Source of the DNA: an uncultured Draconibacterium sp.
Lineage (GTDB): Bacteria; Bacteroidota; Bacteroidia; Bacteroidales; Prolixibacteraceae
Length of the DNA stretch: 64,000 nt
Direction: 5' to 3'
Assembly: GCF_913060805.1 (NCBI RefSeq)
Contig: NZ_CAJXTC010000009.1
Span: 1 to 64,000, forward strand
Under the pieces are notes generated by a model that saw nothing but the letters and a program-made list of their open reading frames with translations, was not told the origin of the DNA and made no database searches. A program made the position numbers and the translations under genes. This document shows, in pieces, positions 6,922 through 63,418 of this stretch (positions are counted from its first letter, which is position 1; each line of letters opens with the position of its first letter).

Positions 6922-7521
6922 TTATTTTATCCAACCAACCTTTATTTTCCACTCCTTCAGTTCCTGTTGCCTTTTTTCAAAATCGGGCGGCGGTTGATGA
7001 TTTTCATTTCGAGCTTGTTCCCTGATTTTTTCGGTTTGTTCTTCCAGTGTATTTAATCCGACTGATTTTCTTCTTTCGTTTACCAGTGTTAGATCGTCAA
7101 AAGGATTTGGACTTAATTCACCGTTTTCATCCCAGTCGAATTGCGTTCCGTACAATTGCGGTTTTTCTTCGAATACAGCAATTCTGTCCGTTAGGTAGGC
7201 CAAATCTTTTGGGTTTGCTTGCTTTTCTGTTACAGCTGTTTCCAGTAGTTGCATGCACTGCTTCATAAACTCAGGCCGACTGATAGAATGTTGGATGATT
7301 AACCAGCTGGCTTCGCATGCTTCTTTGCCAACTTTATCGATGGTTGGATAACCAATTGTGTCGATTATTTCATCTAATTGCTGGGCATTGCTAATATGCA
7401 GATCTTCCATTTGCTCGTTATAACCTTTGCCAAGTTGCCCGGTTTCAACAAGTTGCTGCCGAAATTCCAAATCCGCATTTTTTAGCTCGATTATTTTATT
7501 TGCAATGCTTTTATAATCCAT
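6922..7521 (-). CDS. DUF6624-like protein
   Basis: A 199-aa protein resembling the DUF6624 family, widespread in Bacteroidota and Actinomycetota. Family-like features are an early helical section (LKNADLEFRQQLVETGQLGKGYNEQM), IGYPTIDKVGKEACEASWLIIQHS near residues 57-80, and a central LYGTQFDWDENG followed by NERRKSVGLNTLEEQ. It has no signal peptide, so it is probably cytoplasmic. The biochemical role of the family is unknown. It follows the DUF169 gene on the same strand by 18 bases, suggesting one transcript. Confidence 0.7.
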   Translation of the reverse strand: MDYKSIANKIIELKNADLEFRQQLVETGQLGKGYNEQMEDLHISNAQQLDEIIDTIGYPTIDKVGKEACEASWLIIQHSISRPEFMKQCMQLLETAVTEKQANPKDLAYLTDRIAVFEEKPQLYGTQFDWDENGELSPNPFDDLTLVNERRKSVGLNTLEEQTEKIREQARNENHQPPPDFEKRQQELKEWKIKVGWIK

Positions 7522-45519: not shown

Positions 45520-45672
45520 GCGAATACCACTTTGTTCTCCCTTCCCGGAAGGGAGATCCCGACGTGTCGGGAGAGGGTAGGTAAACGCTATGATCCGTCA
45601 ACTGACGGAGAATACCATATCTATTCCCCTTAATAAGGGGAAATGTCGAGGCACGAGACAAAGGGGTACAGC
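45520..45672. repeat. Two copies of the GC-rich palindromic repeat
   Basis: About 45533-45585 has CCCTTCCCGGAAGGGAG followed by ATCCCGACGTGTCGGGA. About 45622-45669 has TTCCCCTTAATAAGGGGAA and then GACAAAGGGG. They are of the same family as the chromosomal copies, placed in the non-coding stretch (45398-46379) that separates early and late phage genes. Confidence 0.6.
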
Positions 45673-45966: not shown

Positions 45967-46243
45967 ACCTACATTACCTACAAATTGTAATTAGAATAAT
46001 ATAAATACTTATAAATTAATAGTTTATAAAACCAATATCATTTTGTTACTGTAGGTTGGTGTAGGTAAAAACCCATATTTTGTAGGTAAAAACAGTGGTT
46101 TTGTAGGCTGTTTTTGGTGTAGGTAAAAAAAGCTACCTACATTTGCCGTTTGTAGGTAGTAAAAACCTACACTTAACAATCATTGTATCAGTTGGTTACT
46201 AGTAATGTAGGTAATGTAGGTAACTTTTTTACAGGTCGTAGGT
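45967..46243. repeat. Dense GTAGGT repeat array (iteron-like)
   Basis: Twelve exact GTAGGT hexamers occur in 277 bases: eight on the plus strand (from 46051, 46061, 46082, 46119, 46152, 46208, 46216 and 46238) and four on the minus strand (ACCTAC from 45967, 45976, 46135 and 46165), plus a GTAGGC at 46103. Many extend to TGTAGGTAAAAA. At random about 0.1-0.2 copies would be expected. The array is AT-rich between copies and lies just upstream of the 46380 gene, so it may be the phage replication origin or a multi-site operator. Confidence 0.7.
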
Positions 46244-46379
46244 TTTTCTTTTCGCCAAACATAAAAGATGTATTATATTTGTTACTGATTGCTTTTCCGG
46301 GTTTGTGTAACAAGCCTATTATGAGATTGTATTTTATTTCCCCTGCTGATTTTTGTCGAACCTTAAACACACTTTGCTT

Positions 46380-47466: not shown

Positions 47467-48018
47467 ATGGGGAAATACCAGGTAATATATGCCGATCCGC
47501 CATGGGATCAGAAAGGCGGCAAAAAGTGGAGAAGCGATAAAAACGGATCGCTTAATTTACCCTATCCAACAATGAGTGTTGAAGAAATTGCCAATCTTCC
47601 TGTGGTAGATATCGCTGCCAGCGATGCTTTTCTTTTCATGTGGACCACCAATAAATACCTACTTCAGGCCAATAGGGTTATTGAGCAATGGGGGTTTAAT
47701 TATTCTACCTGCATAACATGGAAAAAGAAACGAATGGGCGGCGGACTTGGTGGTACCGTTCGTATTACTTCCGAATATTTATTATTCTGCCGGAAAGGAA
47801 ATTTAAAAGCTACAGGTATAATTCCGGAAAGTGTAATCGAAGCCAAAAGACCTTATGTAAATGGCTATCCGTGTCATTCAAAAAAACCGGATAAGTTTTA
47901 CGAACTCATTGAGCAAGTGTCTGATGGATATTCAAAACTAGAGCTGTTTGCCCGTAATAAACGCGAAAACTGGCACGCCTGGGGAAATGAAGTAGAAAGC
48001 GATATCTGCCTACTGTAA
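47467..48018 (+). CDS. MT-A70 family DNA N6-adenine methyltransferase
   Basis: A 183-aa phage methylase. The catalytic motif is YADPPW (residues 8-13) at the N-terminus, with a SAM-binding region toward the C-terminus (KLELFARNKRENWHAWGNE), the arrangement of the MT-A70/phage adenine methylase group. It would methylate adenine in phage DNA, protecting it from host restriction or marking replication. No restriction partner is adjacent, so it is a solitary methylase. The recognition site is unknown. Confidence 0.85.
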   Translation: MGKYQVIYADPPWDQKGGKKWRSDKNGSLNLPYPTMSVEEIANLPVVDIAASDAFLFMWTTNKYLLQANRVIEQWGFNYSTCITWKKKRMGGGLGGTVRITSEYLLFCRKGNLKATGIIPESVIEAKRPYVNGYPCHSKKPDKFYELIEQVSDGYSKLELFARNKRENWHAWGNEVESDICLL

Positions 48019-55662: not shown

Positions 55663-56327
55663 TGACCAACATTCAAAAACACGAACAATACCACGACTAC
55701 GAACTTGTTCTCGAATGGTTTAAAACCGATGGGAAAGGGGAGCTGCCAGCCCAGTACCAAAACTGGTTAAAGCTGTGGAAATTTGCCGACCAGCTGGTGT
55801 GTGTGGGTCATCTCGATATGGAAACCATTGCCAAAATGATGGTAAAAGAGTTTCCCGAAGAAAAACTCACTTTCCGATCGGCATTAAAGCATGTGGTAAA
55901 CGCTCAGAATTATTACAATTCAAGTCAAAACCTGTCGCGCAAAACAGTGCGCAGGGTATTAGCCCGTCAGATCGATAATCTGATAGCTATTTTGTACGAA
56001 GTGCTTCCCAGCGATCCAATTAACGTAACAAAGCAGATAGGCGCTCTAATCAAAGAAAAACGCGAAATCCTGCAACTTCATTTAAAAGACGAGGATGTTG
56101 GCGAAAAAGAGATACCTGAAACCGTTGTGATTTTCGATACCGATCATAAAAAACACGGCTATCCGGGTATTTCCGAGAAAGACCTTAAAAAGATGTTCCG
56201 CGAATGGGAAGAGGCTGAAATTATAGACGAAAGCGAACGCAATCAATTAGAACAGGAAGTTGGAATCGAACAAAAAAATAGTAAAGCTATACCTCAATCC
56301 GGTACAGGAAGAAGCGCTAAGGGTTAA
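55662..56327 (+). CDS. Candidate terminase small subunit
   Basis: A 221-aa protein, mostly helical: an N-terminal region (HDYELVLEWFKTDGKGELPAQYQNWLKLWKFADQLVCVGHL), then a regular helix-turn-helix-like block (LDMETIAKMMVKEFPEEKLTFRSALKHVVNAQNYY), and a charged C-terminus. It is directly upstream of, and overlaps, the large terminase gene by 68 bases, the normal place for the small subunit that recognises phage DNA. The assignment rests mostly on position and composition. Confidence 0.6.
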   Translation: MTNIQKHEQYHDYELVLEWFKTDGKGELPAQYQNWLKLWKFADQLVCVGHLDMETIAKMMVKEFPEEKLTFRSALKHVVNAQNYYNSSQNLSRKTVRRVLARQIDNLIAILYEVLPSDPINVTKQIGALIKEKREILQLHLKDEDVGEKEIPETVVIFDTDHKKHGYPGISEKDLKKMFREWEEAEIIDESERNQLEQEVGIEQKNSKAIPQSGTGRSAKG

Positions 56328-57948
56328 CCCGCGCGAGCTTGCCGGTTTATGGGGGCGTGGTTTGGGTAAATCGCCGGTGCAGGCAAAACGCTCATACGAT
56401 GCCATTACAAGTATGCCCGGTGCCAGTATTGCGGCAATAGGCCCGTCGTATGTAAACATTATGGAGCGTACCCTGCCGCCAATGGAACAGTTTTGGCAGC
56501 AGTTTTTTGGCTGGCGCGAATGGGATGGCGAAACCGGCGACTACATCAAGTTCCGGAAACCGCCCGATCACTGGCCACAACCATCTACGCCGCCATCTAG
56601 CTATAAGCATGCCATTTCAACACGCTGGGGAACCATTATGTACCTGGGCTCGCTCGATCGTCCCGGTATTCTTAACTCACTTTCGTTACAATACTACGGA
56701 CTCGACGAGGGCCGTTTTGCCGATTACGAGCGCGTAACCAAAGACCTTACGCCTGCCGTGCGTGGCGATTTGCTAAAATTTGGAAACTGCCCGCTATACC
56801 GGGGCCGTACCATCACCTCCGATTTACCTTACATTGAAGACAATGCCGAATGGATGTACGAGCTGCAAAGCAAAATGAATCCAAAGGATGTAATGATGAT
56901 CCTCCAGTTTCAGGATAAAATAGATAAACGCCGTATGCAATGGTTGGAAGCAAAAACCAAACAGCGCCGCCTGTCGCTCGAAAAAAAGATTGCCGAACTG
57001 GAATACATGGCAAACCGGGTACGAAAGAAAACCACCTATTTCAGTATGGCATCCAATCTGGTTAACCGTCACGTACTGGGCCTCGATTATTTCCGCGAAA
57101 ATGCCGATCCGCGTGTAAACCCGAAACATGTATTCCGTACCTCATACCTGTCCATCCGCCCGCGATCTGTCGAAAGCATGTTCTACGGCAAAATGGGGGC
57201 AAGACACTGGTACATTGGCGAGTTTAACTACTCCGCCCTCGATTCGCTTTACGAAACCTATGGCAGCCGCGCCAACCTGTTCCGTACCTGCACTTCCGAT
57301 ATGGATATTGATACTTCTGCCGGCCTCGTTGCAGGTATGGATTTCGGGAATATGGTTTCACTGTCGATCGGGCAAAAAAATCCCTTTGGCCGCAAAGAGT
57401 TTCGTACTGTAAACTTTATGTACGCCCTGGTACCCGACGATATGGATAACGTAGCCGATAAGTTTTGCCGCTACTACGAAGCGCATCCCACAAAAAAGCT
57501 CCGCCTGCATTACGATCGCACCGGCAACACCAAGCTCGAAAACAGCAAGCAAACCAAAGCCGAGCACTTTGCCTCCCGCCTCCGCGCAAAAGGCTGGAAC
57601 GTAAGCCTCATGTCGGTTGGCATGGGTATTATCCCGCATCCGCTGAAGCACCTGCTTTTCTCGCGCATGTTCGCCGAAGAAGAGCTGGAGCGTTTCCCCA
57701 TCCTCCGCATGAACAAACAAAACTGCAAAGAGCTTTACGCCAGCCTCAATCTCGCGCCCGCCATCCCTAAAGGCGACGACATTTTCAAAGACAAGCGCTC
57801 CGAAAAACTGGCCATTCACCGCCTCCCCATGGAATCAACCAACCCCTCCGACAGTTGGGACTATATGATATGGGGAGAATACCATCACCACATCGACAAA
57901 CGAGGTGTTCAGCAAGCCTGGAAGCCCACAACCAGCAAGAAAAAGTAA
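56260..57948 (+). CDS. terL: Terminase large subunit
   Basis: A 562-aa packaging motor. Its Walker A-type loop is GLWGRGLGKS (residues 29-38, Lys37), with a Walker B-type acid in YYGLDEGRF (near residue 150). Its C-terminal nuclease domain shows AGMDFGN (Asp361) and the later HYDRTGN and SDSWDYMIWGEY. It cuts and pumps phage DNA into heads. A TTG start at 56260 is used because no ATG lies before the Walker loop. It overlaps the small subunit gene, which implies coupled translation. Confidence 0.85.
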   Translation: MESNKKIVKLYLNPVQEEALRVNPRELAGLWGRGLGKSPVQAKRSYDAITSMPGASIAAIGPSYVNIMERTLPPMEQFWQQFFGWREWDGETGDYIKFRKPPDHWPQPSTPPSSYKHAISTRWGTIMYLGSLDRPGILNSLSLQYYGLDEGRFADYERVTKDLTPAVRGDLLKFGNCPLYRGRTITSDLPYIEDNAEWMYELQSKMNPKDVMMILQFQDKIDKRRMQWLEAKTKQRRLSLEKKIAELEYMANRVRKKTTYFSMASNLVNRHVLGLDYFRENADPRVNPKHVFRTSYLSIRPRSVESMFYGKMGARHWYIGEFNYSALDSLYETYGSRANLFRTCTSDMDIDTSAGLVAGMDFGNMVSLSIGQKNPFGRKEFRTVNFMYALVPDDMDNVADKFCRYYEAHPTKKLRLHYDRTGNTKLENSKQTKAEHFASRLRAKGWNVSLMSVGMGIIPHPLKHLLFSRMFAEEELERFPILRMNKQNCKELYASLNLAPAIPKGDDIFKDKRSEKLAIHRLPMESTNPSDSWDYMIWGEYHHHIDKRGVQQAWKPTTSKKK

Positions 57949-58243
57949 AAATCGAAGTGCGCTTTTAGCCAATTTCCAGGCATAAAACACACTTCATTTT
58001 CAAAAACTGTTGATTTTCAGCGTCAAAAAAAATATTTTTTGCGGCAAAAACGTTCGCTCACACAGCGAACCCGGACCCACCCTGCGCTCGTTTTGCAATT
58101 GCATACCCCCTCCGGTGGTGATATCTGTAATTGAAATTATGTAAAATTGAAAAATCGTGACAGGTTGGCAGTTCTGCCGCCGGTGGTGGGCTTGCATTTC
58201 TCGAAAGTGCGCCATACTTTAGCATCATAATTAATAATTGAAC
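57949..58243. other. Intergenic spacer with hairpins
   Basis: About 300 bases without a gene. A small hairpin reads TTCGCT...AGCGAA near 58051-58067. A short CCGCCGGTGGTGGG segment lies near 58178-58191. It ends at the first hairpin leader of the accessory island. Confidence 0.45.
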
Positions 58244-58256
58244 AGGCAGGCCGCCT
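58244..58256 (+). promoter_or_regulatory. GC-rich hairpin leader 1
   Basis: AGGCAGGCCGCCT, an inverted repeat with one mismatch, followed by TGGATAAAAAAGGCCTC, ends 23 bases before the ATG of the ArdA-like gene. Nearly the same sequence precedes the next gene (from 58923), and a related hairpin precedes the third (from 59205). Confidence 0.65.
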
Positions 58257-58279
58257 GGATAAAAAAGGCCTCCAATAAG

Positions 58280-58855
58280 ATGAAACTATTTTTAACAGAT
58301 TACGCGAGTTATAACGAAGGTACTCAGTTTGAATTTGGCCACTGGGTAGAACTTGAAGGTTTTAGTAGTGCTGATGATTTTATAGATTATATTAAAGATC
58401 ATTTTGCCGAGTGTGACGAAAAGCGGCCTTTATTGTGTGGAACGCCACGCGAAGAAACAATGTTTACAGATTATGAGGATATGCCTTCCGGTCTTTATTC
58501 TGAGTCGATGAGTTTTAAAGAAATTGAAACGCTGTTCAATTTGATTGATTTTATGAATGATAACGGCCTGGACAATCTAAACAATGAAGGAGACAACCTT
58601 TTGTTTTTATGGAATGAGTATTGTCAGGAAAACGGATACGAAAACGAAATATATAATTTTGACGACGATTTTTTTAATACATTTCTATCTGATAATCCTA
58701 TGGAAGCGTTTCGGCTGGGTTGTTTCTCAGATATAAACTGGAATGATGACTATATATATTTTAATGGTTACGGTAATCTAGAAAGCGTTTCAGATCCTTC
58801 TGGCGAAATAGATGAAACGGCGCTAATTGATTGGATTATTGAAACAAAGATATAA
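58280..58855 (+). CDS. ardA: ArdA-like antirestriction protein
   Basis: A 191-aa very acidic protein: by count 44 Asp/Glu against 8 Lys/Arg. The N-terminal half has the ArdA pattern: FLTDYASYNEGTQFEFGHWVEL, then FTDYEDMPSGLYSESMSFKEIETLF. ArdA proteins mimic B-form DNA and block type I restriction-modification enzymes, which protects incoming phage or plasmid DNA. The C-terminal half (LLFLWNEYCQENGYENEIYNFDDD..) is also acidic and likely continues the mimic. The ATG at 58280 is chosen; an in-frame TTG 14 codons upstream would read through the hairpin leader. It belongs to a three-gene set, each with a hairpin leader. Confidence 0.78.
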   Translation: MKLFLTDYASYNEGTQFEFGHWVELEGFSSADDFIDYIKDHFAECDEKRPLLCGTPREETMFTDYEDMPSGLYSESMSFKEIETLFNLIDFMNDNGLDNLNNEGDNLLFLWNEYCQENGYENEIYNFDDDFFNTFLSDNPMEAFRLGCFSDINWNDDYIYFNGYGNLESVSDPSGEIDETALIDWIIETKI

Positions 58856-58875
58856 ACCAATACGCACCACAAAAC

Positions 58876-58902
58876 AAGCGGCTACCAGCAACGGGGCCGC
58901 TT
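58876..58902 (+). terminator. Hairpin after the ArdA-like gene
   Basis: AAGCGGC (58876-58882) with GCCGCTT (58896-58902), followed by TT and embedded in an outer ACCAC/GTGGT pairing. A weak terminator or processing site. Confidence 0.5.
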
Positions 58903-58922
58903 TTCGTGGTATAAAACAAAAC

Positions 58923-58935
58923 AGGCGGGCCGCCT
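58923..58935 (+). promoter_or_regulatory. GC-rich hairpin leader 2
   Basis: AGGCGGGCCGCCT (perfect inverted repeat), then TGGATAAAACCGGCCT, ends 20 bases before an ATG. It is nearly identical to leader 1 over about 30 bases (TGGATAAAA..GGCCT). The two copies share reading frame with the downstream genes. Confidence 0.65.
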
Positions 58936-58955
58936 GGATAAAACCGGCCTATAAA

Positions 58956-59195
58956 ATGATGAAAAAATTACGTTTCTTTTTCCGTCGTCAGCTTACACTA
59001 GCCGACTTTTCACCCGCTCAGCAGGATTTCATAAAATCAATCTGCGGACATATCGACCCGTTAACCATTCGATTTAAGCGCACATTTAATAATGTCATTT
59101 ATGGTAAAAATTTCGAGTTTATTGGCATGTATCCCGTGTTTTTCTCTGCCGAAATTGGCTATTGTTACTTTTCCAAATCAAATGAAATCGATTAA
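58956..59195 (+). CDS. Small accessory protein
   Basis: A 79-aa protein of unknown family, starting at 58956 or the ATG three bases later. It is basic at the start (MMKKLRFFFRRQLT) and ends with hydrophobic aromatic segments (FEFIGMYPVFFSAEIGYCYF). It is the middle gene of the three leader-associated genes. No function is proposed; by neighbours an anti-defence or modulator role is possible. Confidence 0.5.
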   Translation: MMKKLRFFFRRQLTLADFSPAQQDFIKSICGHIDPLTIRFKRTFNNVIYGKNFEFIGMYPVFFSAEIGYCYFSKSNEID

Positions 59196-59204
59196 TAATT
59201 AACC

Positions 59205-59219
59205 CCGGCGGACCGCCGG
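59205..59219 (+). promoter_or_regulatory. GC-rich hairpin leader 3
   Basis: CCGGCGGACCGCCGG, a perfect inverted repeat with 7-base arms, then CACCCGGTCAAT and the ATG at 59238, 18 bases beyond the hairpin. Position matches the two other leaders, although the tail of the sequence differs. Confidence 0.65.
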
Positions 59220-59237
59220 CACCCGGTCAATAACAAA

Positions 59238-59885
59238 ATGAAAAATTCATTCGAAACATTCGCTCCACTTTTTAATGGTTTTTATTGCACCGTTTGGGAC
59301 CTAGACCAAAACGGAGAGATTGAAAGCGAGTTAGAGTATATAAACGAGCAAAGAGATAAAAAAGGACTCCCGCCTGTTGATTCCGATCAATTACAAATCA
59401 ACTATAAAGGCTATCATTTAGCTTTTTGTGAAAAATTTTGTGACTGGCTGCACTCAGAATTGAGTTATGAATTTGAGAGCATTGAAATTGATTTTCAGAG
59501 CCTGCAAAGTCCCCGGTTTTATAACTTTTCAACCGACTCAATAAACTGTGAGGTAAAACTATTAAATGAAGATTTGCAGAAAATTAGGGAGATTATATAC
59601 AATAATCGGTCCGAGTTTGAAAGCTGGATAAAAGATCATTTTTCCAGTTGCGACGGTTTTATTTCATTTTTCTCAAATGATTTTAACGTCTGGAAGGCCG
59701 AAACAAACGATTTTTTTAACTATCCAGAAGATAAACAGTATTTTGGGCATGTTTTACAGTTCGTTTTATCTGAATGCCTGGGAATGTCAGAGTTTGATTT
59801 TTACGACTACAAAGAGCTTTATATCTCAGAGTTTATAGAAAATTTTGACGAATTAACAGAAGCCCTGCAGACTTCAGCGGCTTGA
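59238..59885 (+). CDS. Strongly acidic accessory protein, DNA-mimic candidate
   Basis: A 215-aa protein of unknown family, with 42 Asp/Glu against 15 Lys/Arg by count, so its net charge is about -27. Aromatic residues are frequent (FDFYDYKELYISEFIENFDELTEAL). Acidic, compact and next to an ArdA-like gene, it could be a second DNA-mimic antirestriction or nuclease inhibitor. No ArdA/ArdB/Ocr family motif is seen, so this is inference. It has its own hairpin leader. Confidence 0.55.
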   Translation: MKNSFETFAPLFNGFYCTVWDLDQNGEIESELEYINEQRDKKGLPPVDSDQLQINYKGYHLAFCEKFCDWLHSELSYEFESIEIDFQSLQSPRFYNFSTDSINCEVKLLNEDLQKIREIIYNNRSEFESWIKDHFSSCDGFISFFSNDFNVWKAETNDFFNYPEDKQYFGHVLQFVLSECLGMSEFDFYDYKELYISEFIENFDELTEALQTSAA

Positions 59886-59898
59886 AACCTTTATAAAT

Positions 59899-59973
59899 AT
59901 GTTTTATCTAATCCTTATTATCGCCTTCATTTTCTACATAATCCGCGAATACAACCGAATCAAACCCCCATAA
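59899..59973 (+). CDS. Very small membrane peptide
   Basis: A 24-aa open frame (MFYLILIIAFIFYIIREYNRIKPP), one hydrophobic helix with a basic tail, starting 13 bases after the acidic gene. Its stop lies inside the downstream terminator arm. Such mini membrane proteins occur in phages; expression is uncertain. Confidence 0.4.
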   Translation: MFYLILIIAFIFYIIREYNRIKPP

Positions 59974-60010
59974 AAAAACCAGCTCAAAGGCTGGTTTTTT
60001 TATGGGGGTT
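59963..60010. terminator. Strong bidirectional terminator
   Basis: A perfect 21-base stem: arm 59963-59983 (containing ATAAAAAAACCAGC) with 59990-60010 (containing GCTGGTTTTTTTAT) around a 6-base loop. It ends the plus-strand accessory genes and the convergent minus-strand pair. Confidence 0.9.
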
Positions 60011-60026
60011 ATCTAGTTCATTTTTT

Positions 60027-60320
60027 CTAGGGCTTGTTCTTTGGTTTAATTTCAATCTCAAGTTCTAGTGGCATTAAGAACTCATTAAGCCAGTTTAATT
60101 TGTTTTGAACCGTTCGCAGCTTGTTCCCAAAATCTCCAAATCGATATCCCTGATCTTTGCAAAAGGTTTCCTTTTTTCCAAATTTGGTTTTTATTTCGCT
60201 TTCAATAGTTCCTATATAATCAAACCATTCTTCTGTGGCTATTTCTCCGCAGGAATCACAAAGGTTACTATTTTTTGTAGTAACCTCTGCACCGCAATTG
60301 ATACAATTATTTTTTTTCAT
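60027..60320 (-). CDS. Zinc-ribbon protein
   Basis: A 97-aa protein with an N-terminal CINCGAEVTTKNSNLCDSCG, two CxxC pairs (residues 6-9 and 21-24), a zinc ribbon. A helical charged rest follows (NKLRTVQNKLNWLNEFLMPLELEIEI). It overlaps the end of the upstream gene by one base. The pair is transcribed opposite to all nearby phage genes. Confidence 0.6.
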   Translation of the reverse strand: MKKNNCINCGAEVTTKNSNLCDSCGEIATEEWFDYIGTIESEIKTKFGKKETFCKDQGYRFGDFGNKLRTVQNKLNWLNEFLMPLELEIEIKPKNKP

Positions 60321-60727
60321 TAGTTTAGTTTTATTTCGTCACACACCTTTTCCCCAAATTCGTTAACAACGTTGGCCTTTATTTCTGAATTAATATCAGA
60401 AAATTGAATTTCCATTTTGTCAGTTAATTGCCCCCATACTTCGCCACGATCAATCAAATCGTAGAAAATCTTTTTTACTTTTTTAATTTCATTCTTATTA
60501 TTGCCGCTGTGAGCTTCAATAATATTGAAATTACAACCAAATATCATTAATTCATAAGCTTTTGAAGCTACTTGAATTAACGATTCTGTATTTGATTTGT
60601 CGCACCTTAACAATAAGCTATTTGCTTTTTGTGCATCATTCGAACAGTTTACGCCTTCAGTTTCCCAGGCCTCTTTGCAGTCAGATAGAAAATCATTCCA
60701 TTTTTTCATTTTGTTTTGTTTTTTCAA
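60320..60727 (-). CDS. Accessory protein under a dyad operator
   Basis: A 135-aa protein of unknown family, mainly helical (WNDFLSDCKEAWETEGVNCSNDAQKANSLLLRCD; KSNTESLIQVASKAYELMIFGCNFNIIEA), with a charged C-terminal half. Met7 at 60709 is an alternative start. It is the first of two minus-strand genes. Their promoter region holds an 18-base dyad (60765-60808) 38 bases upstream, a strong sign of a dedicated regulator. It may be a cargo module expressed in the lysogen. Confidence 0.55.
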   Translation of the reverse strand: MKKQNKMKKWNDFLSDCKEAWETEGVNCSNDAQKANSLLLRCDKSNTESLIQVASKAYELMIFGCNFNIIEAHSGNNKNEIKKVKKIFYDLIDRGEVWGQLTDKMEIQFSDINSEIKANVVNEFGEKVCDEIKLN

Positions 60728-60764
60728 AAGGTTGCTTAATTGCTTCCTTGTTGATACAAATATA

Positions 60765-60808
60765 CGATATTATATCGGATAACACACCATTTATCCGATA
60801 TAATGTCG
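60765..60808 (-). promoter_or_regulatory. Long dyad operator upstream of the minus-strand pair
   Basis: The arms CGATATTATATCGGATAA (60765-60782) and TTATCCGATATAATGTCG (60791-60808) match at 17 of 18 positions around the spacer CACACCAT. The inner TATCGGAT/ATCCGATA parts are perfect. A dyad of this length in a promoter position is a likely repressor site. Confidence 0.75.
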
Positions 60809-61199
60809 TTTTTTTTATTTCAAAATAAAAAAGTGTGTAATTATTGTTTTAATGGTGACCAACCCTCGCCAACCCCCCCCCGCCCCCTTCAAAAAAAAAA
60901 TCACCCTTTTCTGCAATTTAGAACCATTCTAAATAGCCACCCTGTCAGCCCCAGGTCAGCCCCAGGTCACCCTGAGCGAAGTCGAAGGGTTTACCCCTCA
61001 AAACACTTATTTATGTTTTCATTTTTGTGGGGATTTTTTTCACTTTTTTCTCCGTGTTTACTTTTTCAAAAACGTTTCAAAAACCATTTTTTTTTCAAAA
61101 ACAAAATTCATTTTTTAACCTTTTGCCTTTTGCCTTTCCACTTTTTCCTTACATTTGATCCCGGTTAGCGTAACCACATAACAACAAAAACAGTACGCC
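60809..61199. other. Non-coding spacer with homopolymer tracts
   Basis: About 390 bases without a supported gene. It holds a run of nine C then CGCCCCC near 60875-60888, an A10 run after it, and a dispersed hairpin near 60967-60990 (CACCCTGAGCGAAGTCGAAG). A T/A-rich stretch with repeated 'ttttcaaaaac' phrases follows to 61110. Confidence 0.5.
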
Positions 61200-61538
61200 A
61201 TGGCAAAAATTCCACCTTTTATTTATTCAAAGTACAACGATTCTCATTTTATAGTCGATACCAAATCAGGCATAACCAACCAGGTACACATATTCGATAA
61301 TCTTCCCGATACCATCGAGTTCGAGCACAACTCAATGGGTAAAGCACAGAGCAAAGGATGGCCTGCTTTAGGTAGTCGCACATCACATCAAGGTAAATTC
61401 TATGTATTAGTTCCGGTACGTTATGCAGTTCCGGTAGTACTCGAAACACAAGCCGATGCCGACAATGCAGCCAAACACTTCCGCCGCATGGCCGACTGGT
61501 TTCTGTACTCCATCCTCCGCGAAAACAAACTGCAATAG
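61200..61538 (+). CDS. Small phage protein
   Basis: A 112-aa protein of unknown family. The first 45 residues are beta-rich (FIYSKYNDSHFIVDTKSGITNQVHIFDNLPDTIEFEH). A basic, glycine-containing loop (GKAQSKGWPALGSRTSHQGKF) and a C-terminal helix (DADADNAAKHFRRMADWFLYSI-like) follow. It comes after the accessory island and before the portal region, so it may be a head- or tail-related protein. Confidence 0.5.
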   Translation: MAKIPPFIYSKYNDSHFIVDTKSGITNQVHIFDNLPDTIEFEHNSMGKAQSKGWPALGSRTSHQGKFYVLVPVRYAVPVVLETQADADNAAKHFRRMADWFLYSILRENKLQ

Positions 61539-61594
61539 CATTCTTTCAAATATTTAAGCAATAACGCATTTAAGCATTAACGCATTTTTTGAGG

Positions 61595-61658
61595 CGTATC
61601 CCATTTTTTTGCCGTATCCCACGTATCCCCAACGTATCCCCATTTTTTGCCGTATCCC
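61595..61658. repeat. Five direct repeats of CGTATCCC
   Basis: CGTATCCC at 61595, 61613, 61622, 61633 and 61651, spaced 9-18 bases apart. It lies in the untranslated stretch before the 61768 gene. Function unknown. Confidence 0.6.
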
Positions 61659-61767
61659 CAAATTTTCCATTCTAATATTCCAATACTCTAATATTCCATC
61701 CTTCCCCGCGCTGTCCTTTCCGTATCATCACCCACTCATTATACTTGCCTGTATAAAATGCAATAGC

Positions 61768-62040
61768 ATGCCAACAATTAATTTATTCGAAGCACTGAGG
61801 GAGATGCGTTCATCGCAAAAACCATTTACAGTTACGGTGGTAAAGTACTCCGTATCCCGCAAAACTGGTGGCCAGGTAGAAACGCTTATCGATGTGCTCG
61901 AGGCCGGCCAGGTAAAAGCTGCGGGTACCGAAAACCTTATTGCCTTCCGTGCTGAAGGGTCTGACATTGTTCGCCGCTACAACATTTACGGAATCCGCCG
62001 CTACAACGGAATGACAGTAACCATGAAACGTAATTCTTAA
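61768..62040 (+). CDS. Small phage protein upstream of portal
   Basis: A 90-aa protein; the ATG at 61768 is chosen since the longer frame starts in a non-coding repeat region. It is basic and beta-rich (KPFTVTVVKYSVSRKTGGQVETLIDVLEAGQVKAAG; SDIVRRYNIYGIRRYNGMTVTMKRN). It ends four bases before the portal gene and may be a small head or tail component. Confidence 0.55.
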   Translation: MPTINLFEALREMRSSQKPFTVTVVKYSVSRKTGGQVETLIDVLEAGQVKAAGTENLIAFRAEGSDIVRRYNIYGIRRYNGMTVTMKRNS

Positions 62041-62044
62041 TACT

Positions 62045-63418
62045 ATGATACGTCGAACACCATCCGGAATCTACCGATCGCAAAGTGCAGCCATACTGCC
62101 AAAATCAGGCGGAATGTTCCTGCTCGATACCAACCCACGCGACACCTATTACGAAGAACAGTCGCTTGTTCCCCAGTATGTAGAAGAAACCCGAAAGGAT
62201 TTCTACATGCTCATTAACGGGAATAAAATAATTCCTAACGGACCAAACAACCTGTTTCCACAGGATCTGAAACGCCTGCTCGATCGCGATAACGATATGC
62301 ACGGATTGTTGCGTACTAAAATCGATTTATTGCTTTCCGGAGGCTGGTACCTGTACACCGAACGGCTCGATAAAGATGAAAAAGGCCAGACTAAACTTGT
62401 TAAAGACGAGGTACTCGATCCCGAAATAGAAGATTACCTCGAGAGTTATGATCTCGACAACTACCTGGCCGAAGCTGCTACCGATATGGTTTATGTGGAA
62501 AACAATACACCGGTGTTCCGTCGTAACATTTATTCCCGGTCCAATCTATTCCGCGAAAAATGGCGCCTGCTACCTATGTTGGTAGGATCTGAAGACAGCC
62601 GCCTGGAAGCATACGATGAAAATAACCGGATAAACCACATTTTTGCAGCCGACTGGACCGATCCCGAATCATCGCGGAAACCATCGAAAATACCGATGGT
62701 AAACACCGACGATCCTTTCTCACAACCCGTATCCGCAAAATTTATCTGCTTCCCGTCGTTCGCCAGTAAATACTACGGCCGCCCTCCGTTTATTGGTGCG
62801 GTAAACTATATCGAGCTGGCCACACTTATTCCGTACTGGCATAAGGATAACATTAAAAATGCCGCCTTCAACTGGCATATACAGTCGTCGTTCGAGTACT
62901 GGCAAAAAATGTACGAAGAAAACAACATCACTCCCGGATCGAAAGAAGCCGTAGAATTAGAAGACGAGATACTTGCCGAATTCGACAGCATCCTGTATTC
63001 CGAAACCGCCGAAAATGCACAAAAGCGCATTCATACCAAGTTTTCGTACAGTGCCGATGGTAAGCCATTGCCAGGAATAACCATTACGCCATTGCAGGAT
63101 AACACAAAAGAGCGTTCAACAGCTTACACCGATCTGTTTAAAATCGTTAACCAGGCTAAAATCAGTGGCGTTCATCTCGATCCTACGCTGGCCAATACCG
63201 TTATCGATGGTAAACTCTCATCCGGAAGCGAAAAAATGCACGCCTTCAACCTACACAACAAAGTAGTTACACCCATGCCGCGCCGCTTAATATTGTGGGC
63301 TCCAAACTTCGCACTAAAACACAGCTTCCCAAACAAAAACATAAAAATAGGCTTCCGCGAAATCGAACTCGTTACCCAGGATAATACCACCACCGGAACA
63401 AAAGAACCGAAGGAATAA
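62045..63418 (+). CDS. Phage portal protein
   Basis: A 457-aa protein with the composition and layout of Bacteroidota phage portals: an early helical segment about binding of the ring (LLRTKIDLLLSGGWYLY), a central domain (RSNLFREKWRLLPMLVGSED; FICFPSFASKYYGRPPFIGAVNYIELATLIPYWHKDNIKNAAFNWH), and a C-terminal helical region (RSTAYTDLFKIVNQAKISGVHLDPTLANTV). The portal forms the 12-fold ring at the head vertex through which DNA passes. It lies about 4 kb after the large terminase, with the accessory island in between, an unusual spacing. Confidence 0.78.
   Translation: MIRRTPSGIYRSQSAAILPKSGGMFLLDTNPRDTYYEEQSLVPQYVEETRKDFYMLINGNKIIPNGPNNLFPQDLKRLLDRDNDMHGLLRTKIDLLLSGGWYLYTERLDKDEKGQTKLVKDEVLDPEIEDYLESYDLDNYLAEAATDMVYVENNTPVFRRNIYSRSNLFREKWRLLPMLVGSEDSRLEAYDENNRINHIFAADWTDPESSRKPSKIPMVNTDDPFSQPVSAKFICFPSFASKYYGRPPFIGAVNYIELATLIPYWHKDNIKNAAFNWHIQSSFEYWQKMYEENNITPGSKEAVELEDEILAEFDSILYSETAENAQKRIHTKFSYSADGKPLPGITITPLQDNTKERSTAYTDLFKIVNQAKISGVHLDPTLANTVIDGKLSSGSEKMHAFNLHNKVVTPMPRRLILWAPNFALKHSFPNKNIKIGFREIELVTQDNTTTGTKEPKE

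Follow-up and report, generated by a model that had tools for sequence, protein, structure and literature searches.

A three-copy palindromic leader precedes the starts of three accessory genes in a Draconibacterium prophage and may act as RNA

Why do three consecutive small genes of a prophage each begin shortly behind a similar GC-rich hairpin? The genes, numbered 1 to 3 here, lie in a 64,000-nucleotide (nt) stretch of DNA from an uncultured Draconibacterium sp. (contig NZ_CAJXTC010000009.1; C9:1-64000 in our numbering), which we call the window, in a host genome of 5.48 Mb. An earlier note had read the hairpins as a sign of shared control, perhaps at the RNA level, or of an insertion module able to move one gene at a time, either of which would make a modular anti-defence island with a common leader. 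We found that the hairpins belong to a real, local, three-copy leader associated with gene starts on a small accessory cassette. The explanation that we favour, tentatively and just short of an even chance, is that this leader is a cis-regulatory element that acts as RNA and co-regulates the cassette.

Three genes start behind a similar palindromic leader

All three leaders are on the plus strand. Leader 1 (58243..58271) contains the palindrome CAGGCAGGCCGCCTG (58243-58257), which has one arm mismatch, and leaders 2 (58922..58950) and 3 (59205..59228) contain the palindromes CAGGCGGGCCGCCTG (58922-58936) and CCGGCGGACCGCCGG (59205-59219), both of which are perfect, with 7-nt arms around one central base (7+1+7). 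The hairpin type GGCGGnCCGCC that had been given for all three fits leaders 2 and 3, the perfect hairpin of leader 3 included, but leader 1 reads GGCAGGCCGCC, with one break. The gap from the palindrome to the first ATG is 22, 19 and 18 nt for genes 1, 2 and 3, respectively, within the 18-23 bases noted earlier; for gene 2 it is 22 nt if counted to a second ATG at 58959. Leaders 1 and 2, previously described as nearly identical, share 82% of positions in an ungapped comparison over 50 nt, first codons included, and their sequences indicate that they are copies of one ancestor. Leader 3 has little in common with them outside the hairpin and is probably a diverged copy.

We examined how rare these sequences are. 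In the window, GGCGGNCCGCC with at most one mismatch was found three times against a mean of 0.90, a marginal excess, as 6 of 100 shuffles reached three. A search for AACAGGCRGGCCGCCTGGATAAAA with up to three mismatches found leaders 1 and 2, from which the pattern was derived, and nothing in 100 shuffles. In the whole genome, exact GGCGGNCCGCC occurs twice, both times at this cassette, and CNGGCNGNCCGCCNG without mismatch occurs at four places, which are the three leaders and one site within a 292-codon open frame on contig C5. A survey of 104 kb of contig for comparable palindromes (7+1+7, at most one mismatch, GC-rich arms) returned 19, and only the three leaders were located 5-40 nt upstream of the start of a kept open reading frame (ORF) on either strand, positions that make up ~3.8% of the surveyed sequence. 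For leader 1 the survey also registered a minus-strand ORF (58000-58215), probably not a gene. The evidence beyond chance is strong for placement and clustering and marginal for composition alone.

Read in frame with their genes, leaders 1 and 2 contain no stop codon, and a TTG at 58238 would take in leader 1. The leaders do not look coding, because the two differ in five codons of that frame and each difference alters the amino acid. A coding reading is also disfavoured for leader 3, by an in-frame stop at 59196.

The leaders can pair as a compact pseudoknot

Each leader hairpin has a stem of 5 base pairs (bp), CAGGC/GCCTG or CCGGC/GCCGG, and its loop can pair with a GGCC or GGTC downstream. 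The possible pseudoknot stems are 58243-58247/58253-58257 and 58249-58252/58267-58270 in leader 1, 58922-58926/58932-58936 and 58928-58931/58946-58949 in leader 2, and 59205-59209/59215-59219 and 59211-59214/59225-59228 in leader 3. The loops AGGCC, GGGCC and GGACC, when extended by the G that follows, have the pre-ATG complements GGCCT, CGGCC and CGGTC. Every leader has 5 bp of complementarity to its six-base loop region in the stretch from hairpin to ATG (shuffle p 0.0036, 0.0035 and 0.0029), and by comparison with 462 other 20-nt pre-ATG stretches of the region the chance was 0.013-0.020. For the five-base loop alone, the shuffle p values were 0.0023, 0.024 and 0.030. Leaders 1 and 2 are not independent in these statistics.

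When the three leaders were aligned (alignment A1) to an H-type pseudoknot, 27 of 27 cells were paired. Both partners had changed at one pair in each stem, A-U/C-G in stem 1 and G-C/A-U in stem 2; an equally good result was reached by 46 of 500 shuffles. Sliding the partner strand by 1-3 columns lowered the pairing to 11-56%. The base at the centre, unpaired in the palindrome, and its distal partner have changed jointly (G-C to A-U). There is a hint here that RNA, and not only DNA, may be read. The shared control that the earlier note had suggested draws its support from three sequences, in the form of the common leader, the possible distal stem near the ATG and the two paired changes.

The sequence shows the leaders, their positions, their likeness, their capacity to pair and the slot that holds the cassette; from it we infer that the leaders would be transcribed, would fold and would exert control together with a trans-acting factor. 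The prophage carries the cassette in this slot, between a terminase-like and a portal-like gene, and each of the three plus-strand genes has its own start-associated leader of one type. The leader RNA would fold into an H-type pseudoknot, compact and with its end directly ahead of the start codon, within the ribosome landing zone, where it might restrict ribosome access or shield the 5' end of the message, and a phage or host factor would then open or bind it. The same palindrome could alternatively serve as a DNA operator. In Flavobacterium johnsoniae, whose phylum is described as lacking Shine-Dalgarno sequences, structure around the start is reported to tune initiation (PMC6847099). If the host phylum does without such sequences, a folded leader near the ATG would give start-site control a simple model that can be tested. 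Repeated leaders ahead of small phage genes can flag co-regulated anti-defence genes without protein homology, and genes 2 and 3 would become candidate counter-defence or host-takeover genes if the RNA explanation is true.

A number of observations at the cassette itself speak against this explanation. The alignment holds three sequences only, and its pairing and covariation were matched by the 46 shuffles mentioned above. GGCC is self-complementary, which makes pairing easier, and plain RNA folding of the leaders was unremarkable (z -0.28 to -0.98). The minimum-energy fold of leader 1 pairs the loop side with GGCCT rather than closing the hairpin. With the 4-bp stem 2 and the second ATG of gene 2, every leader has 9 nt from the end of the distal strand to the ATG (intervening loop 9, 9 and 5 nt), but the longest 5-bp helices and the first ATG give 8, 6 and 9 nt, so that the constant 9 depends on two analyst choices. 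The perfect 7+1+7 symmetry of leaders 2 and 3 suits a DNA-binding site equally. Rfam gave no match in the window at the gathering score, and at E values up to 10 the leaders were overlapped on the minus strand only, by matches far under the cut-offs, to the ALIL pseudoknot (12.4 bits vs a cut-off of 50, leader 1) and to STnc50 (19.3 vs 55, leader 2). Finally, genes 1-3 had no helix-turn-helix (HTH) match, and no regulator gene is evident in the cassette.

The cassette joins an ArdA-like gene to two genes without anti-defence matches

Gene 1 (58280..58855, plus strand) encodes a protein of 191 amino acids with an isoelectric point (pI) of 4.05. It had been called ArdA-like, which stands for its N-terminal domain (residues 4-95): this matched PF07275 at 33.8 bits (cut-off 27, E 6.2e-8) over profile positions 2-80 of 155. 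Positions 81-155 were unmatched, and there was no full-length ArdA match. The PHROG matches were phrog_2059 and, at the C terminus (residues 119-172), phrog_4534. By these matches gene 1 is an ArdA N-terminal domain fused to another phage module. Its strong acidity is a further likeness to ArdA, whereas its C terminus is a difference, phrog_4534 being elsewhere a module that stands alone in many large Bacillus phages. Bacillus phages accounted for 56 of the 61 phage records matched by gene 1, and among the Bacillus matches listed only residues 111-191 were covered. The C terminus is common to only two (L017 and L018) of 14 aligned relatives. The predicted structure (pLDDT 67, moderate confidence) had no PDB fold match (best E 1.4), and the gene 1 profile had no PDB match either. 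Anti-restriction activity of the product may be predicted from the ArdA-like domain. In many large Bacillus phages the phrog_4534 module (58628-58852 here) forms a small gene of its own, which some of them carry inside the terminal repeat; the module is also found alone in one other genome of the order. A probable intrinsic terminator, read from the sequence, follows gene 1 (58876..58904, plus strand), with a 7-bp stem (AAGCGGC/GCCGCTT), a 13-nt loop and a short T run; the terminator scanner, whose loop limit is 8, did not list it.

Gene 2 (58956..59195, plus strand; the start may be the second ATG) encodes a basic protein of 79 amino acids (pI 9.3). The description of this middle gene as unknown held: it is an orphan that matched no family of Pfam, PHROGs, PADLOC or NCBIfam, no phage sequence at E values up to 1 and nothing in IMG/VR. 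Among 37 genomes of the genus, its own included, the best non-self E value was 0.027, for a stretch of genome G056 that scored 0.008 when the search was limited to the fetched loci.

Gene 3 (59238..59885, plus strand) encodes 215 amino acids and, with a pI of 4.21, is about as acidic as gene 1, as had been noted. It belongs to phrog_37559 (E 5.4e-16), a phage family of unknown function, and its relatives in 14 phage records (Cellulophaga, Bacteroides and others) are all annotated as hypothetical. Its predicted structure was poor (pLDDT 45). In a comparison of the three proteins, genes 1 and 3 had a common stretch of 19 residues (42%, E 0.006), which is too little for a claim. Genes 2 and 3 had no anti-defence match in the four family databases above, and only gene 1 has such homology.

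The cassette lies in a variable slot

We compared the surroundings of the cassette with seven stretches of related prophages. The terminase-like gene (56260..57948, plus strand), so called from position and synteny only, has no convincing family match in Pfam or PHROGs; the portal-like gene (62045..63418, plus strand) belongs to phrog_22277, itself of unknown function, and its role is suggested by position. Both genes were found in three of the seven stretches (L165, L166 and L167), at 31-32% identity for the terminase-like gene, which is syntenic there, and 26-27% for the portal-like gene. Since these three prophages keep the flanking genes but hold mostly other small genes (1.6-2.9 kb) between them, the interval 57948-62045 is a variable gene slot. 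The GC content is 37.6% in the 58-60 kb block vs 49% at 56-58 kb and 45% at 62-64 kb. By eye, the last small gene ahead of the portal seems to be shared. In the slot of L165, L166 and L167 there was no relative of gene 1 or gene 3 and no comparable 7+1+7 palindrome.

The leader does not recur with its genes elsewhere

Further points against an RNA leader came from other loci. In L165, TTT follows a GC hairpin that ends 22 nt upstream of an ORF of 114 amino acids; L166 has a hairpin and T run, seen by eye, ahead of an ORF of 107 amino acids resembling that of L165. These hairpins ahead of a slot accessory gene look like terminators of the preceding gene, which calls for caution in naming any pre-gene hairpin a leader. 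None of the 23 loci that hold a relative of gene 1 or gene 3 has this leader (L022 and L071 are, by length, the same phage, L021 and L067 apparently the same prophage, and L029, with no upstream sequence, was omitted). Among them, L150 has an unrelated 5-bp GC hairpin at most 110 nt upstream and L025 a weaker imperfect palindrome. The genes thus remain at homologous loci without the hairpins that the earlier note would have kept there. Its modular anti-defence island with a common leader mostly fails on this count and on the lack of anti-defence matches for genes 2 and 3, and a mobile anti-defence module is not demonstrated.

Searches for the leader sequence gave a similar result. At up to two mismatches, GGCNGGCCGCCTGGATAAAA was found in 11 of 140 family genomes (own included) at 13 places, two of which are the leaders; eight of the other 11 places are in open frames of 230-556 codons, and the remaining three are known by sequence alone. 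A reversed control gave 12 matches, and the idea of a family-wide element was dropped, the GGCNGGCCGCCTGGATAAAA matches being taken as chance. A class-wide search of 395 genomes (own included) returned only the genome's own two copies, and exact GGCNGGCCGCCTGGATAAAA had no match in IMG/VR. BLAST of leader 2 and of the L076 element described below against phages and plasmids found no whole-element match (best E 0.5). The recurrence next to other accessory genes that had been expected was accordingly absent from the family genomes beyond the control level and from the class genomes.

In IMG/VR, GGCGGNCCGCCNGGATAAAA had one match, in L076, a 52-kb viral contig whose fetched part is 67% GC and which carries CAGGCGGCCCGCCTGGATAAAACGGGCC between two likely genes, 73 or ~145 nt upstream of a dCMP deaminase frame, depending on the start of that frame. 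The element and leader 2 agree in 26 of 28 nt, and the distal strand is complementary, one register off, to the loop of the element itself, which counts in favour of the RNA explanation. Since 18 of the matching bases were fixed by the scan pattern, about one chance match is expected; the extra agreement (CA..T, C.GGCC) is unlikely to be chance, by a rough estimate of the order of 1e-3 for a single case. No ArdA gene adjoins the element and its surroundings had no phage match. It lies away from any start codon, inside a mechanical TTG frame of 121 amino acids, and may be coding. The looser CAGGCNGNCCGCCTGGAT matched 67 IMG/VR loci, L076 among them. Stop-to-stop frames of at least 76 codons span all 67, so that this measure does not single out L076; an exact 4-nt loop complement within 12 nt was present in nine of the 67, and the ATAAAAC.GGCC continuation in L076 only.

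GGCGGNCCGCCNNNATAAAA matched seven IMG/VR loci, L143-L148 and L076. The matches in L143, L144 and L147 are inside ORFs, and that in L145 lies 20 nt before the ATG of a 511-amino-acid frame, or within the same frame if it starts at 7295. In L148, hairpin, AATAAAA, GGCC and ATG stand in the right order and the hairpin is the end of a coding frame of 217 amino acids. The whole leader layout can therefore be a coincidence, a further point against the RNA explanation. L146 is a viral contig of 36% GC. On its minus strand, at oriented position 782, the palindrome TTGGGCGGTCCGCCCAA (8+1+8, perfect and intergenic) has ATAAAA after it and lies 33 nt upstream of an ORF of 143 amino acids, with no distal complement seen by eye. 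It mildly favours a wider habit of hairpins before starts in phages.

A bolder version of the RNA explanation would place the leader in a so far undescribed class of compact, start-associated pseudoknot RNAs, common to unrelated phages (this prophage and the 67%-GC contig L076), that switch accessory and host-takeover genes on early after entry. No Rfam family matched, and the literature searches that we made turned up no description of such a class. We regard this version as unlikely, and its chances are reduced because the L076 element may be coding and the L148 layout can be chance.

Other explanations for the leaders

The main rival to a leader acting as RNA is a set of DNA operators. A phage repressor, bound to each palindrome as a dimer, would keep the three genes silent during lysogeny and let them be expressed upon infection or induction, in the manner of acr/Aca or Reg576. 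The palindromes are of odd length, nearly perfect and free at the central base, with AT-rich sequence directly to the left, as such sites would be; anti-defence genes under repressor control are documented (PMC8708921, PMC11065993), and sub-threshold HTH and CopG-like matches occur in genes close to the left end of the prophage (34.8-36.1 kb). An operator has no need, however, of the distal complementary segment and the paired change, leader 1 breaks the symmetry, and the cassette is without a regulator. The promoter scan was at background, with 10 sigma-70-like sites vs 8.3 expected, in a scan that does not cover Bacteroidota promoters. We consider operators a possible explanation, though a less probable one than a leader acting as RNA.

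The hairpins could also be terminators of a preceding or antisense unit, or incidental structures, with no role for the following gene. The terminator scan lists the hairpins of leaders 2 and 3 as terminator-like on the minus strand only, where T-rich sequence comes after them, the region holds nine terminator-like sites vs 3.0 expected, and in L165 and L166 a hairpin and T run, judged by eye, lie ~20 nt ahead of one of the accessory genes in the corresponding slot. Against this, the intrinsic-terminator test found no T run after the leader hairpins on the plus strand, where the sequence continues with GATAAAA or CACC, and no minus-strand gene is there to terminate. Separate terminators already follow genes 1 and 3, and no cassette gene precedes leader 1, which leaves terminators quite unlikely. 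A mobile joint, in which the leader is a recombination seam, like the end of a cassette with promoter early stem loops (PeSL), that shuffles single genes into the slot and regulation is secondary, would account for leaders 1 and 2 as direct repeats bracketing gene 1 and for a slot that varies in three related prophages; such shuffling is reported in T4-like phages (as cited in PMC4503421). It is decidedly unlikely here: no second locus has the leader beside another accessory gene, save the isolated and possibly coding element of L076, leader 3 shares little beyond the hairpin, and no locus was found that lacks gene 1 and has a single fused leader.

Comparison with known start-associated systems

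By analogy, the leader most likely works like known start-associated or establishment sequences (SAS/ESAS, EGeRS, acr/Aca) but is not a member of them by sequence. A SAM-II or preQ1-like topology, considered for the leader, found no Rfam support. Aca2 binds RNA. The acr/Aca systems resemble the cassette in that a repressor site lies ahead of an anti-defence gene (PMC8708921), but they require an HTH repressor gene in the operon, and none was found among genes 1-3. In Cluster K mycobacteriophages, the SAS is a 13-bp asymmetric sequence with a Shine-Dalgarno core and 11-19 copies per genome (PMC3203893). SAS and ESAS, as that paper's account has it, are short repeats of unknown function just upstream of the starts of unrelated phage genes, some with inverted repeats, whereas the present leader is a GC palindrome with a distal complement in three copies. 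The 13-bp SAS GGGATAGGAGCCC is absent from the leaders by eye when compared with the consensus quoted in PMC3203893.

In pLS20-family Bacillus plasmids, EGeRS1 spans 400-600 bp and EGeRS2 comprises a strong promoter and TTATCCC dual-motif operators (PMC8708921). Here, too, one regulatory sequence with inverted repeats is repeated before several operons, including anti-restriction genes, but no likeness to the 29-nt leader was seen in what is given there, no alignment having been made. The consensus regulatory sequences of archaeal viruses are similar in that a common upstream sequence, in some cases with inverted repeats, marks otherwise unrelated anti-defence genes; they differ in being TATA/BRE promoters with many genes per virus, against three genes and a putative role here (PMC11065993). 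PeSL cassettes of T4-like phages place stem-loop units at the joints of shuffled accessory genes (cited in PMC4503421), but a PeSL contains an early promoter, whereas here stem-loops are present and the promoter scan, which leaves Bacteroidota promoters aside, was at background. The title of a 2014 paper reportedly calls PeSL promoter-terminator motifs.

Other features of the prophage

The prophage begins at ~35-37 kb and extends beyond the window end, and it includes genes for an MT-A70 methyltransferase, an S49 peptidase, the portal-like phrog_22277 protein and a tail tape measure. A probable bidirectional terminator (59963..60010), a perfect 21-bp inverted repeat with a T-rich arm, lies between gene 3 and a minus-strand gene pair (60727-60027) that encodes a protein of 135 amino acids and one of 97 amino acids with sub-threshold zinc-ribbon matches. 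Upstream of this pair, at 60765-60808, is the inverted repeat ATATCGGATAA/TTATCCGATAT, perhaps its operator. A tandem pair of GC hairpins of a different sequence type (CCCTTCCCGGAAGGG, TCCCGACGTGTCGGGA) is located at 45539-45570, and the non-coding stretch at 46000-46250, ahead of a phage gene at 46353, contains many copies of the motif TGTAGGTA/TACCTACA. The MT-A70 adenine methyltransferase gene (47467-48018) and the ArdA-like gene would give this one phage two possible answers to restriction.

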